A stretch of 64,000 nt of DNA, taken from contig CALXTQ010000013.1 of NCBI GenBank assembly GCA_944391485.1, positions 126,809 to 190,808 on the forward strand. The letters run 5' to 3'. Under the pieces are notes generated by a model that was not told the origin of the DNA, did no database searches, and worked only from the letters and a program-made list of their open reading frames with translations. Numbering within the stretch: position 1 is the stretch's first letter; the number at the start of each line of letters is the position of its first letter. A program made the translations under genes and the position numbers. Origin of the DNA: an uncultured Alphaproteobacteria bacterium. Its GTDB lineage: Bacteria; Pseudomonadota; Alphaproteobacteria; RF32; CAG-239. Positions 34,619-47,928 of the stretch are shown one piece after another.

Positions 34619-34670
34619 TTGACAAAAAGCCGCCGTTTTTGTAAACTGAAATTGGTAGGTGTGATATAAT
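34619..34670 (+). promoter_or_regulatory. Promoter region of the first cysteine-rich gene, with a block shared by its paralog
   Basis: TTGACA (34619-34624), 17 bp, then TAAACT (34642-34647) form a good sigma-70 promoter. Further down is an extended -10, TGATATAAT (34662-34670). The segment 34642-34663 (TAAACT...ATT.GTAGGTGTG) matches 36992-37013 upstream of the paralog at 18 of 22 positions. Confidence 0.65.
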
Positions 34671-34672
34671 TA

Positions 34673-34727
34673 GCGGTTTTTCAAAACCGCCATAATGCTG
34701 TCTCGGGTATGTCGAGAACAGTATTTT
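34673..34727 (+). promoter_or_regulatory. Two hairpins in the 5' leader of the first cysteine-rich gene
   Basis: First hairpin: GCGGTTTT / AAAACCGC (34673-34690). Second: CTGTCTCG (34698-34705) with CGAG-A-ACAG (34713-34721), one bulged A, followed by TATTTTT. The second has the look of a conditional terminator 50 nt before the ATG, so attenuation is possible. The paralog's leader does not obviously share it. Confidence 0.45.
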
Positions 34728-34779
34728 TGGTTATCTCGCATCTTAACAGGCTTTAGTTCCAAACAGCGAGGTAATCGTC

Positions 34780-36846
34780 ATGAAGAAAATTCTAACTTGT
34801 TTTTTAACGACTGTACTTGTTTGCTTCTGCAATCAGGCACAATCTGCATTACAGGGTAATGATGCCATTACCTCACGACACACTACAACACACACATACA
34901 CACCAGAACTAAAGCCTGTGCCGCAAAGTTTCAGGACTGCCGCCATCTGCTTTATCGGCGACGACTGCGGAAGCCAGGGGCTTTACAACAAAACAGATGA
35001 AGACATGACAATAGATCCCGAAGATATGTGCAAATCGGAAGGATATACCAAAAACATCTGTACCGACGGACAAATTGCCGACAGTGTCTGTCCGTATCAT
35101 GAAGATTATAATAAAGGCTGTACCTGTCCGGAAGAATATAAAATCTGCTCCGATTTGGAAGCCGGATCGGGTCTGACCTGCGTTTTGGATGACAAAACCT
35201 ATTATGAATCCTGTGCCTGCAGTCCTTCTCTGGTTACCTGCAATTCGGCGGAAGACGGCGTCGGGGATGCTTGCGGCGGCAAATACGCTTCCTGCCAATG
35301 CAAACCCAACCTGGTCAGCTGTAATGAGGTTCAGGACGGCGTCGGGGATGCCTGCGGCGGCAAATACGCCTCGTGCCAATGCAAAGACAGCCTGATCCAG
35401 TGCGGCACCAATCAGGAAGGCGTCGGCCTGCAATGTGATGGCAAATATGCGGAATGCCGCTGCCCGACAGATTGGAGTGAATGCAACGGGGATACGGAAG
35501 ACGGAGGCGCCGAGGGCGCGTCTAAATGCTCAATCGGCGGCAAGGATTATTACAGCAAATGCAAAATTGTCGAAGATAAATGCGGTAAAAATGTTTTGAG
35601 CGGCTATGGCAGAGTTGTAACAACTTCGGAAGAGTTTCTGCAGGCCGTTAAAGACGTTAATGCCAAAATAGCCAGAACGATCATTGTCATGAACGATATT
35701 GCCGTTACGGAACCGATTTCCTTTACTGCGGAATCTGACATAAAAACCAAAAACTCCTTCCGGGACGCTATTCCTGATTGCAAAACGGACAAACGCCCAA
35801 AACTGACGTTTGACACGGAAGCGGCAGCCATTACCTATTCCGGGCATAACCACATGGTTGACAGCCTGCAGTTTGAGAATACCGGCGGCGACCTTCTGCA
35901 GGTATCGCCGAACATAGATCTGACACTGAACAACATAACTCTCCGCGCAAACGCTACAGATCGTGTAGCAAATGCCATAAAAATGGACAGTTATGGAGCC
36001 GCAGATATCACGATCAACGGCGATCTGCAGCTTTACGGCAATATCATGCTTGAACGCGCCAGTTCATCCAAATTTACACTGAACGGTTCTCTCATCGCCA
36101 GGTGGTCAACGACGGAGATAAATCTCGGAGGTTCTGATCTGATTATTGACGAATTACCGGAAGGTTATGATGACTATCCGGTGAAACCTACTGCCGGATA
36201 TGATATTAATTCCCCTTACATTATGGCCCAAAGTGCGCAGATAACGGCTAATACTGCTTATATCTACTGCCCGCTCGGACAACTTCTAAGCATTAAAACC
36301 AGACAAAATATCGCATTTGGCATAGTCATGAACCATAGAGAAGAAAACTGTCCGATTGCACCGGGAGCATTTTCTACAGTTCTGACCGGCTCGCCAAAAA
36401 ATATTACGTTTTCCGGTATAAATGCTCAGCCGGAATTTAATCTGGAGAGCAACAGCAGTTCCGCGTCTCTTATAGTTGAAAATTCCAATCTTAGGGCCAG
36501 ATCAACCGGACAAATTAACCTTTCCCGTCTCAGTTATTATAACTCGACGGTACAGGGCTTAAGAGCGACAGTTAAAACAACGGGCAGCAATAATGTTGAA
36601 AAAGATGTTCGTAATCTTGATGTTTCCATTTATGACTCGACTTATCAGCGTGGTTCCATAACCCTGCAAAACGCTTCTTATGTTATAAGGAGCAATGGTA
36701 AAGAAGAGGGAACAGGAGACAGCTGCTGTTACAGAGTTGGTACAAATTGCGGTCTGGCTCCATTATATTGTACCAAATGCCCCTGGGCAAGACAATGTCA
36801 GTCAGGGACAACTTATTATTATAAGAAAGTAAATCGAACGATTTAA
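34780..36846 (+). CDS. Secreted cysteine-rich repeat / beta-helix protein, first paralog
   Basis: 688 residues with a Sec signal (MKKILTCFLTTVLVCFCNQA, cleavage near QSA). A conserved N-terminal part (DCGSQGLYNK; CPYHEDYNKGC) precedes five cysteine-rich repeats (about 114-261) of about 27 residues, pattern C-x-C-x5-6-C-x6-GVG-x2-C-x-GKY-x-SC, likely disulfide-stabilised. From about 277 (GRVVTTSEEFLQAVKDVNAK) to 640 lies a repetitive short-strand region that looks like a right-handed beta-helix. The end is a second cysteine cluster (CCYRVGTNC, CTKCPWARQC). There is no anchor or barrel, so it is periplasmic, secreted or held by partners. I recognise no characterised family. The start has GAGGTAA 7 nt upstream. 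Confidence 0.85.
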   Translation: MKKILTCFLTTVLVCFCNQAQSALQGNDAITSRHTTTHTYTPELKPVPQSFRTAAICFIGDDCGSQGLYNKTDEDMTIDPEDMCKSEGYTKNICTDGQIADSVCPYHEDYNKGCTCPEEYKICSDLEAGSGLTCVLDDKTYYESCACSPSLVTCNSAEDGVGDACGGKYASCQCKPNLVSCNEVQDGVGDACGGKYASCQCKDSLIQCGTNQEGVGLQCDGKYAECRCPTDWSECNGDTEDGGAEGASKCSIGGKDYYSKCKIVEDKCGKNVLSGYGRVVTTSEEFLQAVKDVNAKIARTIIVMNDIAVTEPISFTAESDIKTKNSFRDAIPDCKTDKRPKLTFDTEAAAITYSGHNHMVDSLQFENTGGDLLQVSPNIDLTLNNITLRANATDRVANAIKMDSYGAADITINGDLQLYGNIMLERASSSKFTLNGSLIARWSTTEINLGGSDLIIDELPEGYDDYPVKPTAGYDINSPYIMAQSAQITANTAYIYCPLGQLLSIKTRQNIAFGIVMNHREENCPIAPGAFSTVLTGSPKNITFSGINAQPEFNLESNSSSASLIVENSNLRARSTGQINLSRLSYYNSTVQGLRATVKTTGSNNVEKDVRNLDVSIYDSTYQRGSITLQNASYVIRSNGKEEGTGDSCCYRVGTNCGLAPLYCTKCPWARQCQSGTTYYYKKVNRTI
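35254..35385 (+). repeat. 81-bp tandem coding repeat
   Basis: The 51-bp stretches 35254-35304 and 35335-35385 (both begin GACGGCGTCGGGGATG) differ at about three positions and are 81 bp apart, the period of the 27-residue cysteine repeat. The high nucleotide identity points to recent duplication or gene conversion inside the gene. Confidence 0.8.
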
Positions 36847-36868
36847 CTGCTTATAACCGCAATAAAAC

Positions 36869-36897
36869 AAAATCTCCGGAATCCTCCGGGGATTTTT
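36869..36897 (+). terminator. Terminator of the first cysteine-rich gene
   Basis: AAAATCTCCGGA (36869-36880) pairs with TCCGGGGATTTT (36885-36896) with one T-G wobble, then T. Confidence 0.8.
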
Positions 36898-36970
36898 GTG
36901 TATAAAACACGTTTTTTTACATAATTTTTCCTTTTAACTCTGGCGGAAAAATTTTTACCCCAATAAATAG

Positions 36971-37013
36971 TTGAAAAATCCATTATATTGATAAACTATT
37001 ATTTGTAGGTGTG
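36971..37013 (+). promoter_or_regulatory. Promoter region of the second cysteine-rich gene with the shared block
   Basis: TTGAAA (36971-36976) and TAAACT (36992-36997), 15 bp apart, then ATT.GTAGGTGTG to 37013, matching the block upstream of the first paralog. The ribosome-site region is also alike (TTTAGTTC ... CAG ... GAGG ... TCATGA) in both genes. Confidence 0.55.
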
Positions 37014-37110
37014 TTTTGTTGTGATTAAAGATGCGTGTCTCATCATTTTTCGCTTTCTTCTGTCATATTTTCTTACACCTTCTTGGGTTTTAGTTCTACA
37101 GGAGGGTATC

Positions 37111-39048
37111 ATGATAAATAAGCTTTTATTTCTTATTTTCGCCGGAGGAGCCGTTATCGGACTTTTTCCGAACCCCGCTTCCGGTTCCGATGCTTTTTCT
37201 GTTGCCACCATACCATTCACACCAAAGCTAAAGCCCGCCTCTTCTTTTAAACTGGCGGCGGTCTGCTTTGCCGGCAGCGACGATTGCGGAAGTCAGGGCC
37301 TTTTTAACCGTGTCGGAGAGGACGAAGTTATTACCATGGATCCGGAAGAACAATGCCTGGCAGAAGGTTACAGCAAAAATATCTGTAACAATGGACAGAT
37401 TGTTAAAGACCCATGCCCGTATCATGAAGATTATAATAAAGGCTGCGCCTGTCCTTCCGATTTCAGCATTTGTTCCGGCGAAGAAGACGGCAACGGCCAG
37501 CAATGCGTTCTTGATGGACAGACATACTGGGAAAGCTGTTCATGCAAAGCATCGTTCGTCAGTTGTAATTCGGCGCAGGACGGTGTTGGAGTTCCTTGCG
37601 GTGGTAAATACGAATCCTGTGTTTGCAAACCTAATCTGATCAGTTGCAATGAAGTTCAGGACGGTGTCGGAGATGTCTGCGGCGGCAAATACGCCTCGTG
37701 TCAATGTAAAGACAGCCTGATCCAGTGCGGCACTAATCAGGAAGGCGTCGGGGAAGACTGCAACGGAAAATACGCCAAGTGTAAATGTCCGGACGGGTGG
37801 ACAACCTGCGAGGAAGGAGGACCTGCAAAAGAAGCCGAAAAATGTTCTATCGGGGGAGATGATTATTACAGTCAATGTGCTCCGGTAGATAATGATCCAT
37901 GCGGAAAAACAGTTTTAAGCAAATATGGCACCGTCGTTTCAACAGAGGAGGAATTTCTGGCAGCCGTAGATCAGGTTAATCTGCGAAAAGAGGGATTTAT
38001 TATTGTAATGAATAATATCAAGGTAACCAAACCAATTTTTTTCACAAATATGGTAGATATAAAAACGAAAAATTCGTTCCGCGATGAAATACCCGCATGT
38101 AAAACAGATGCCCGTCCATCACTGACCTTTGATACGGATACGGCAATTTCCTTGGATTATCAGGCTGGAAAATCTACTTTTAATGATTTGAAATTAATTA
38201 ATGATGGCGGTCATTTATTTCGGTTGTCCGGGGAAAGCGGTAATTTAACCATGAGCAATATTACACTTCAAACCCCAATGGACTCTGATGTTTTCTATTT
38301 AAACCTTCCTAATTTGAATCAATCTGAAATGACTATTGAGATTTTCGGAGACTTGTTTATAAAAGGAAACATCAATCTTGAAAAATTTACAGATGAAGCC
38401 GTTTTTACAATTTTCGGTTCCCTTATGGCTACCGGGAGCAAAGAGATAAATTTAGGGGACGGACAGTTTTGGATTAAAGCCTTGCCTGAAGGATATGATG
38501 AATATCCTGTTAAACCAATTAATCCTTTCGGTACCAATTATCCGCTTGTTAATGCAAACAATATAAAAGCCGGTTTTGTCCGCTTTTACTGCCCTAAAGG
38601 AGGTGTCAAATCCATTACTCTTACAGGCAACGGTTATCCCAGCAGCGTCGTTTTAGGTTTGGGGGATGATGAAGAAGGCGATGAATGTCCTCTGGGAATA
38701 CAAAGTTTTACAGTAGTTATTGAGGGAAGACCTGATTATGTTTTTTTTCAGGGAATGCAATCAGCTACTGCTACATTTAATACAACAACTTATCCTGAAT
38801 TGACTGTTAAAAATGCAACTCTTAACGTCAATACTCCACAACCCTCTTTTTCCAGATTATTCCTGTATGCGTCGACTTTGAAAGGCTCGGTCGAAATCAG
38901 CACTGCTGATATTTATGATACAGATAATTTTGATGTTATTATTAAAGATTCAAAGTATTCTGGCATTAGTCTGAATCCCGCCTCTTATTCAATTAATGAA
39001 AAAGGTTCTCGTCAAAATAAAGTATACGAAGTTTTAAAAAATATGTAA
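37111..39048 (+). CDS. Secreted cysteine-rich repeat / beta-helix protein, second paralog
   Basis: 645 residues with a Sec signal (MINKLLFLIFAGGAVIGLF, cleavage near ASGSDA). It has the same plan as the 34780 product: DDCGSQGLFNR, CPYHEDYNKGCACP, five cysteine repeats (about 112-256), then GTVVSTEEEFLAAVDQVN opening a beta-helix-like region. It lacks the C-terminal cysteine cluster and ends QNKVYEVLKNM. The start at 37111 (AGGAGG 5 nt upstream) is preferred over 37009. The cysteine region is close to the first gene in DNA sequence, but the 3' half is much more AT-rich and diverged, suggesting a mosaic history. Function unknown; probably a surface or secreted partner of the first. Confidence 0.85.
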   Translation: MINKLLFLIFAGGAVIGLFPNPASGSDAFSVATIPFTPKLKPASSFKLAAVCFAGSDDCGSQGLFNRVGEDEVITMDPEEQCLAEGYSKNICNNGQIVKDPCPYHEDYNKGCACPSDFSICSGEEDGNGQQCVLDGQTYWESCSCKASFVSCNSAQDGVGVPCGGKYESCVCKPNLISCNEVQDGVGDVCGGKYASCQCKDSLIQCGTNQEGVGEDCNGKYAKCKCPDGWTTCEEGGPAKEAEKCSIGGDDYYSQCAPVDNDPCGKTVLSKYGTVVSTEEEFLAAVDQVNLRKEGFIIVMNNIKVTKPIFFTNMVDIKTKNSFRDEIPACKTDARPSLTFDTDTAISLDYQAGKSTFNDLKLINDGGHLFRLSGESGNLTMSNITLQTPMDSDVFYLNLPNLNQSEMTIEIFGDLFIKGNINLEKFTDEAVFTIFGSLMATGSKEINLGDGQFWIKALPEGYDEYPVKPINPFGTNYPLVNANNIKAGFVRFYCPKGGVKSITLTGNGYPSSVVLGLGDDEEGDECPLGIQSFTVVIEGRPDYVFFQGMQSATATFNTTTYPELTVKNATLNVNTPQPSFSRLFLYASTLKGSVEISTADIYDTDNFDVIIKDSKYSGISLNPASYSINEKGSRQNKVYEVLKNM

Positions 39049-46998: not shown

Positions 46999-47928
46999 AT
47001 GAAAAGAAAAATTGACTATAAAGCCGCAGACGAGCTGGTCGATGTGATTCATGACTGGCAAAGTTGGCTGCGCGAAGAAAAACGCTATTCTGAACATACG
47101 CTGGACGCTTATTTCAGGGATCTGTCATTTTTCTTTGAGTTTCTGTACAACTCTCTCAAAAAACTTCCGGATATCGCCGATGCGGAAAAAATTGACGTAC
47201 GCGGTTTTCGCGCCTATCTCAGTCAGAGAGCGGCAAAACATATTTCTAAAAGCTCCCTTGCCCGCGAAATCTCGGCAATAAAAAACTTTTTTAAATGGCT
47301 CGACAGGAAAGGCATTGTCAAAAATGCCGCGATAACGATTATCTCCTCGCCGCGCAAACCCAAAGTGCTGCCCAAGGCGCTGGATGTCCGTGACACCTTC
47401 CGGGTTATTCACGAGGCCTGCCGCAACGAAAAAGAACCGTGGCAGGGGCTCCGGGATACCGCCGTCTTTACGCTTCTTTACGGATGCGGTCTGCGTATCT
47501 CCGAAGCCCTGTCGCTGAATGTGGGGGATTTTGACAATAATAAATTTCTCAGAATCAGAGGAAAAGGCAAAAAAACGCGTCTGGTTCCCCTTTTGCCCGT
47601 TGTTACGGACAATATTGACGCCTATCTTGCCCAATGCCCTTATAAGATGCGCCGTGGAGAAGCTCTTTTTCTCGGCGCGAGGGGCGACCGGCTGAGTCCG
47701 AGAATTATCCAGCGGCAGCTTGAAAAAATCCGCTTCAAGCTTGGCCTTCCGGATACACTGACCCCGCACGCGCTGCGCCATTCCTTTGCCACCCATTTGC
47801 TGGAGGCCGGAACAGACCTGCGTTCCATTCAGGAGCTTCTGGGTCATGCGTCTCTGACCACAACCCAGCGCTACACGGATGTTCAGATTGAAACCCTGAA
47901 AAAAGAATATCATAAAGCTTTTGATTAG
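46999..47928 (+). CDS. xerC: Tyrosine recombinase XerC (XerC/XerD family)
   Basis: A 309-residue site-specific recombinase that resolves chromosome dimers at dif. The N-terminal SAM-like domain (WLREEKRYSEHTLDAYFRDL) is followed by the catalytic domain with Arg in GCGLRISEALSL, Lys in RGKGKKTRLVPLLP, HALRHSFATHLLE (His-x-x-Arg), LLGHASLTTTQRYT with the second His and the nucleophilic Tyr. Adjacency to priA supports XerC over XerD, though the sequence alone does not decide. No phage or integron context is present, so a housekeeping role is likely. Confidence 0.92.
   Translation: MKRKIDYKAADELVDVIHDWQSWLREEKRYSEHTLDAYFRDLSFFFEFLYNSLKKLPDIADAEKIDVRGFRAYLSQRAAKHISKSSLAREISAIKNFFKWLDRKGIVKNAAITIISSPRKPKVLPKALDVRDTFRVIHEACRNEKEPWQGLRDTAVFTLLYGCGLRISEALSLNVGDFDNNKFLRIRGKGKKTRLVPLLPVVTDNIDAYLAQCPYKMRRGEALFLGARGDRLSPRIIQRQLEKIRFKLGLPDTLTPHALRHSFATHLLEAGTDLRSIQELLGHASLTTTQRYTDVQIETLKKEYHKAFD

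Follow-up and report, generated by a model that had tools for sequence, protein, structure and literature searches.

Gene pair, cysteine stalk, and β-helix

The window analyzed in this article is a stretch of 64,000 nucleotides from contig CALXTQ010000013.1 (herein contig C13) of an uncultured alphaproteobacterium (GTDB lineage RF32; CAG-239), and it contains two neighboring genes that code for secreted, cysteine-rich proteins. Gene 1 (34780..36846) encodes a protein of 688 residues, and gene 2 (37111..39048) encodes its paralogue of 645 residues. Both genes and all features described for them lie on the forward strand; downstream of the end of gene 2, atpC follows on the opposite strand. The two proteins share 52% identity across 611 residues (E 2.4e-175), which places their paralogy far above chance, and they would be recent tandem duplicates inside a large family of secreted proteins with a modular build. 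From the N to the C terminus, each exhibits a signal sequence, a short unstructured peptide, a cysteine-rich head, five four-cysteine repeats, and a long solenoid; this architecture of a disulfide stalk plus a β-helix is predicted with good confidence from the structure models. The original prediction of paralogous secreted proteins that combine cysteine repeats with a β-helix is thus borne out by the sequence identity, the matched cysteines, and the solenoid obtained with AlphaFold2 (AF2).

The start of gene 2 was moved from GTG 37009, which would lengthen the protein by 34 residues, to ATG 37111. The latter is most likely the true start because it opens a good signal sequence (MINKLLFLIFAGGAVIGLF) directly 3′ of the Shine–Dalgarno (SD)-like GGAGGG. 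Both products start with a hydrophobic signal sequence, read by eye and with its cleavage assumed (residues 1–23 of protein 1, 34848 being the last position of 34780..34848; residues 1–26 of protein 2, 37111..37188), in line with the Sec signal that had been assigned to both. An unstructured peptide follows, which is THTYTPELKP in protein 1 (residues 37–46, 34888..34917; predicted local distance difference test score, pLDDT, 35–40), where it matches a strict motif conserved in relatives, and TIPFTPKLKP in protein 2 (residues 33–42, 37207..37236; pLDDT about 50), delineated by motif conservation.

The head spans residues 57–116 of protein 1 (34948..35127) and 52–114 of protein 2 (37264..37452) and is recognized by a profile of the head and first repeat with E values of 1.5e-27 and 1.4e-26; the previously noted shared segments DCGSQG and CPYHEDYNKGC are aligned in both proteins. 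The repeats, delimited by their cysteine positions, occupy residues 116–268 (35125..35583) and 114–264 (37450..37902). Five four-cysteine repeats are indeed present in both proteins, although the uniform length of ~27 residues first proposed for them applies exactly only to repeats 2–4, with the spacing C-x6-C-x10-C-x6-C-x-C; repeat 1 has 31 residues, and repeat 5 is longer and irregular. Since the head shows the same C-C-C-CxC order, with a spacing of 10/10/10/2, it may be counted as a diverged repeat 0. Throughout the head and repeats, 27 cysteines in each protein coincide column by column (residues 57–268 and 52–264), and three further matched cysteines are located within the β-helix of both. 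AF2 models the head and repeats with a pLDDT of about 88 in protein 1 (25 alignment rows) and of 91–97 (about 95 overall) in protein 2, where they were predicted alone. The DNA identity of the pair peaks in repeats 3–4 with 88%, compared with about 50–60% in the solenoid, for which gene conversion or selection could be the reason. As had been noticed, a C-terminal cluster of six cysteines is restricted to protein 1 (C649, C650, C657, C664, C667, and C673; residues 649–673, 36724..36798); it is disordered in the AF2 model (pLDDT about 30), as is the N-terminal peptide.

The cysteine module has no match in Pfam or NCBIfam, and sequence and profile searches of the PDB were empty. Compared with PDB structures, no convincing relative was found for the repeats (VIA best Z 2.2, root mean square deviation (rmsd) 6.7; Foldseek chains of EGF-like and TNF-receptor type at E above 0.01), an absence that does not in itself establish a new fold. 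The Foldseek list points to a likeness to these short disulfide-rich tandem modules, from which the window proteins differ by another cysteine spacing and by the lack of a significant structural match and of a sequence match. After Sec export, the cysteines of head and repeats would form a stiff, disulfide-locked stalk. It is very unlikely that they serve metal binding or redox buffering instead. Such a role would suit the recurrent CxC motifs and the fact that DsbB and VKOR, known re-oxidases of DsbA, have no match at E 0.001 in the whole genome despite its cysteine-rich secretome; however, the repeat spacing and the predicted β-hairpins are akin to extracellular disulfide repeats such as those in the Foldseek list, and the genome encodes a TlpA-like thioredoxin (L208:5339-5869, identified by eye).

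The remaining long region of short strands had been interpreted as a β-helix, with structure prediction named as the means of refuting this, and the prediction gave a solenoid for protein 1. Residues 273–644 (35596..36711) form a right-handed parallel β-helix with a pLDDT of 70–85 over most of its length. Over residues 248–621 of the model, VIA aligned 292 chains with a Z of at least 5, the top value being 20.4. These include the binding region of the SRRP adhesin of Lactobacillus reuteri (5ny0; Z 20.2, rmsd 3.0, 254 residues, 14% identity) and PfbA, an adhesin of pneumococci (Z 17.4). Values of Z 16–20 are also reached by other top neighbors, namely AlgE epimerases, PL6 alginate lyases, and depolymerase tailspikes. 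In Pfam, only a marginal match to Pectate_lyase_5 (PF20585, described as adhesive) is seen on residues 280–414 of protein 1, with 25.5 bits against a cut-off of 24.3. Protein 2 shows no PF20585 match in the Pfam scan; its region of about residues 268–640 (37912..39030) is 43% identical to the β-helix of protein 1 (E 3.0e-66) and is on this ground taken as a probable solenoid as well. NCBIfam returned nothing on either protein. Together with the empty PDB searches, this agrees with the earlier statement that no characterized family is known with this order of head, repeats, and helix.

A family with a common head and variable C termini

The profile of head and first repeat was searched in 152 genomes belonging to this GTDB family. 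Members were found in 98 of them and in 15 of the 16 genera, Azospirillum sp. CAG:239 being among the named relatives; outside the GTDB family, only one of about 380 genomes of the class gave a match. A scan of genome contigs with protein 2 as query found no relative, and one with a single relative as query succeeded. The richest genomes contain at least 20–35 scored matches and up to 165 first-look candidates. Counting the paralogues across the present genome, a check proposed at the outset, gave about 10 family loci including the window pair. The suggestion that the two proteins act as a pair was not supported: a separate leader precedes each gene, and the two are part of these ~10 members, with dozens in relatives. 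Tandem duplication would be the simpler account. Many genera have a single head-only protein of ~120 residues, which is probably the ancestral form. The same head is joined to differing C termini across members, namely β-helices, a weak Lcl/DUF1566 type, and cysteine-only forms. The weak type is exemplified by paralogue L102 of the same genome, whose Lcl_C/DUF1566 match (E 0.002) is below the cut-off. One relative (L131) has nine repeats and was left out of the alignment, since these ran into the β-helix columns. Among the 152 genomes, no other yielded a match to the β-helix of the pair at better than 4e-4.

On balance, we lean toward regarding these proteins as modular secreted or surface adhesins or binding proteins with a disulfide stalk and a variable tip, kept as a repertoire in each genome, recombining, and in many cases governed by a leader. 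Herein, the stalk would hold out the variable C-terminal domain, in this case a β-helix of the carbohydrate-binding type, and the proteins may act at or near the cell surface, the genome keeping copies with different tips. The fold itself leaves the function unsettled because VIA gives similar Z values for tailspikes and lyases. Hence, secreted polysaccharide-active enzymes have to be considered, in which the β-helix cleaves a glycan in the manner of pectate lyases, alginate lyases, or tailspike depolymerases and the cysteine part stabilizes or targets it. The enzymes among the top structural neighbors argue for this; no enzyme family exceeds the threshold in Pfam or NCBIfam, the search of the 152 genomes recovered the β-helix from these two genes only, and unrelated tips on the same stalk in sibling genes suit a binding repertoire better, so that we hold enzymes to be unlikely, if a serious candidate. 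A polymorphic toxin system, with the conserved N terminus delivering a C-terminal toxin, would likewise combine a constant N-terminal module, differing C-terminal domains, and many copies. It is most improbable here: no toxin domain is found in Pfam, no immunity-type gene follows either gene, and the tips resemble β-helices and Lcl-type domains.

In the adhesin-like repertoire favored here, the copies would trade sequence through homologous recombination within their conserved N-terminal portion. Near-identical blocks shared between paralogues often span the upstream region, the signal sequence, and the head and end before the C terminus. In four genomes, two contigs break off within different members of the family, and their ends are identical over 127, 77, 74, and 99 nt, which is a sign of the assembler halting at an identical repeat. 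Furthermore, the heads group by genome (13 changes versus 25.9 when shuffled; 0/200 shuffles), a pattern that concerted evolution or recent duplication would produce. Antigen-gene families show dispersed copies, exchange through a conserved part, and an exposed variable part, and the family described here may be alike; it differs in that neither a silent-cassette/expression-locus arrangement nor phase variation is shown for it.

The surroundings of the pair are consistent with such exchange. In six congeners, aas is followed by the acetyltransferase gene, glmS, the nitroreductase gene, and atpC, and this interval is free of family genes. In the present genome, it is the pair that lies between aas and atpC, and the gene for the acetyltransferase adjoins another family member on contig C14, so that the synteny break carries family members on both sides. 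Recombination between copies would explain this break well, though other causes are possible. The glmS gene, which at least four relatives carry at this position, had no match in the present genome (query L203:4800-6635); its absence falls exactly at the break and may be an assembly gap.

Several smaller observations were made on family members in other genomes and on their neighbors. In G103 (genus g9), members L148, L149, L150, L154, L155, L156, and L158 contain apparent palindromic repeats translated within the open reading frame (LPKDLGRGWGGFHN, TSPLRGEVG), which are placed between signal sequence and head and resemble Rickettsia palindromic elements. A second small secreted cysteine family (CxxLGYxxxxxxCxxxxxLxCPFD) occurs in tandem directly 3′ of family genes (L105:4344-6466, L104:1819-2610, and the gene downstream of L188). 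In G004, two family genes (L169:1620-2653 and L171:1512-2856) are broken close to where the head ends, with the resulting frames overlapping, and are possibly frameshifted or pseudogenes. A phage origin of the family was rejected, as no match was found in 50,697 phage records and PHROGs matches were only weak.

A structured leader in front of both genes

Gene 1 is preceded by a promoter-like TTGACA-17-TAAACT (34619..34647), which shares the top rank among 15 promoter-like sites of this region (10.2 on average in shuffles). Its TAAACT is located 8 nt 5′ of the element TAGGTGTG, and the same arrangement is found in gene 2. The structured 5′ leader of gene 1 (34652..34779; folding z -3.77) contains TAGGTGTG at 34656–34663, an anti-SD ATCTCGC at 34733–34739, and the SD GCGAGGT at 34766–34772; the pairing of this internal anti-SD with its own SD ranks first against all swapped SDs. 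That of gene 2 (37002..37110; folding z -2.39) contains TAGGTGTG at 37006–37013, the anti-SD ACCTTCTTG at 37077–37085, and the SD CAGGAGGGT at 37099–37107, and the minimum free energy fold pairs the latter two.

This organization recurs in 24 leaders of the genus, which comprise TAGGTGTG close to the putative start of transcription, hairpins that vary, the anti-SD, and the SD (mean folding z -2.28). Each anti-SD fits its own SD better than the SDs of other members, with 0/20000 permutations as good, and this also applies to 15 nonredundant leaders. RNAalifold predicted no pairs on the MAFFT alignment of the leaders because the variable hairpins misalign the anti-SD, and energy-based swapping tests were used for the pairing in its place. 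A separate DNA pattern for the leader hit five places in seven genomes, and the reversed control hit none. Four of the places are upstream of known members (G001:C4:62910, G001:C4:201786, G004:C28, and G006:C1), and the fifth (G003:C49) precedes a family member that the protein list had missed. Short leaders that lack this shared structure precede a second group of members and those of the other genus examined. By its predicted pairing, the leader that would govern many of the copies can hide the ribosome-binding site and might thereby act as a switch. A second, alternative pairing of the 5′ TAGGTG with the anti-SD was not borne out by covariation in the nonredundant set (4177/20000 permutations as low), so that a two-state switch is no more than a possibility. 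Rfam contains no match at E 1 or less overlapping 34652–34779 or 37002–37110, and the shared leader adds a candidate regulatory element that this database lacks.

Export route and comparison with known systems

The only secretin match in this genome is part of a type IVb pilus cluster on contig C4 (about 47–58 kb; L207:5215-13602 and L208:1485-4805), together with TcpQ, PilO, an ATPase and a second ATPase gene, T2SSF, and pilin-like genes. The cluster also contains two near-identical major pilins (QTGRSMVEMLGVLAIIGVLSVGG). This raises the possibility of export or display through the pilus like that of TcpF and CofJ, in which the disordered peptide T-H-T-x-T-P-x-x-x-K-P would hook a minor pilin trimer before passage through the secretin. 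The strict motif THTxTPxxxKP after the signal sequence is found in 32/52 relatives and in 0/3150 background windows, a conservation that is not independent evidence since the rows are homologous, and yet the peptide is predicted to be disordered. In TcpF, a flexible N terminus carries the pilus secretion signal (PMC9565799). The proteins thus share with TcpF and CofJ a Sec signal, a flexible N terminus, and a type IVb pilus in the genome; however, they have an unrelated fold, the family genes lie outside the pilus operon (the window pair being on contig C13), and the key aromatic residue of the TcpF/CofJ signals is absent in many members (THTTPIELKP). Export by this route is rather improbable and may be treated as a lead only. 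A type V autotransporter was rejected: Pfam shows no autotransporter domain, protein 1 ends in a disordered tail, and protein 2 ends with the solenoid.

Fibrillar adhesins are defined by a stalk, an adhesive domain, and an anchor (PMC9210967). The window proteins resemble them in their repetitive stalk of five repeats (pLDDT 91–97 in protein 2); for the adhesive domain, the marginal PF20585 match and an adhesin-like fold can be named, the latter being common to enzymes. PF20585 covers only a third of the solenoid, and a cysteine stalk is not known for Pectate_lyase_5. The closest working parallel is Lcl of Legionella, a glycosaminoglycan-binding adhesin that consists of a stalk and a C-terminal binding domain and is peripheral on the cell surface (PMC11162425), though the window proteins lack its defining features. 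Common to both are Sec export, a repetitive stalk, and a C-terminal binding domain that is putative in the window pair, and paralogue L102 contributes its weak Lcl_C match. In contrast, Lcl has a collagen triple-helix stalk and neither disulfides nor a multigene repertoire, and the window pair has a β-helix; neither window protein shows a DUF1566/PF07603 match in Pfam or collagen-like Gly-X-Y repeats. The SRRPs of gut lactobacilli (5ny0/5nxk) combine a repetitive region with a β-helix binding region and represent the best-covering adhesin match to the model. They differ by being Gram-positive proteins with glycosylated serine repeats, accessory Sec export, and an N-terminal binding region.

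Several points weigh against an adhesin-like repertoire. Pfam shows no anchor domain, and no lipobox was seen by eye, although anchoring mediated by a partner is possible. Binding, localization, and expression of the proteins are putative. Without matches to DsbB and VKOR, the oxidation of about 30 cysteines is unexplained. VIA Z values near 20 are also reached by tailspikes and polysaccharide lyases, so that the β-helix could have an enzymatic role or simply serve as a scaffold. As to recombination, the assemblies are drafts, and the shared contig ends could in part originate from strain mixtures; moreover, neither the C-terminal tree (10 rows) nor the heads of the same rows alone show clustering by genome, and module shuffling is therefore not separately proven.

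A stalk with an adhesive tip in a multigene repertoire is a kind already known; the stalk module, the taxonomic setting, and the leader are not in the libraries searched. It is quite doubtful that the whole constitutes an undescribed surface-repertoire system, in which dozens of dispersed genes, a shared secretion peptide, a new disulfide-stalk fold, exchangeable tips, recombination that evens out and shuffles the copies and also rearranges the chromosome, a ribosome-hiding leader, and type IVb pilus export would all be combined. It is from metagenomes that these gut-type alphaproteobacteria are known, and the open-access literature searched gave no account of their attachment and no description of the repeats or of an adhesin family in the taxon. 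For a genome of 1.5–1.7 Mb, a stalk-and-tip family of dozens of genes represents a considerable outlay, and it readily suggests itself as a candidate for attachment. The cysteine repeat represents a confidently predicted module without a family model, and the family offers a direct test of cysteine oxidation in a bacterium seemingly lacking DsbB and VKOR. Elsewhere in the window, at 46999–47928, a gene of the tyrosine recombinase/phage integrase family is located, which probably encodes a chromosomal Xer-type enzyme.

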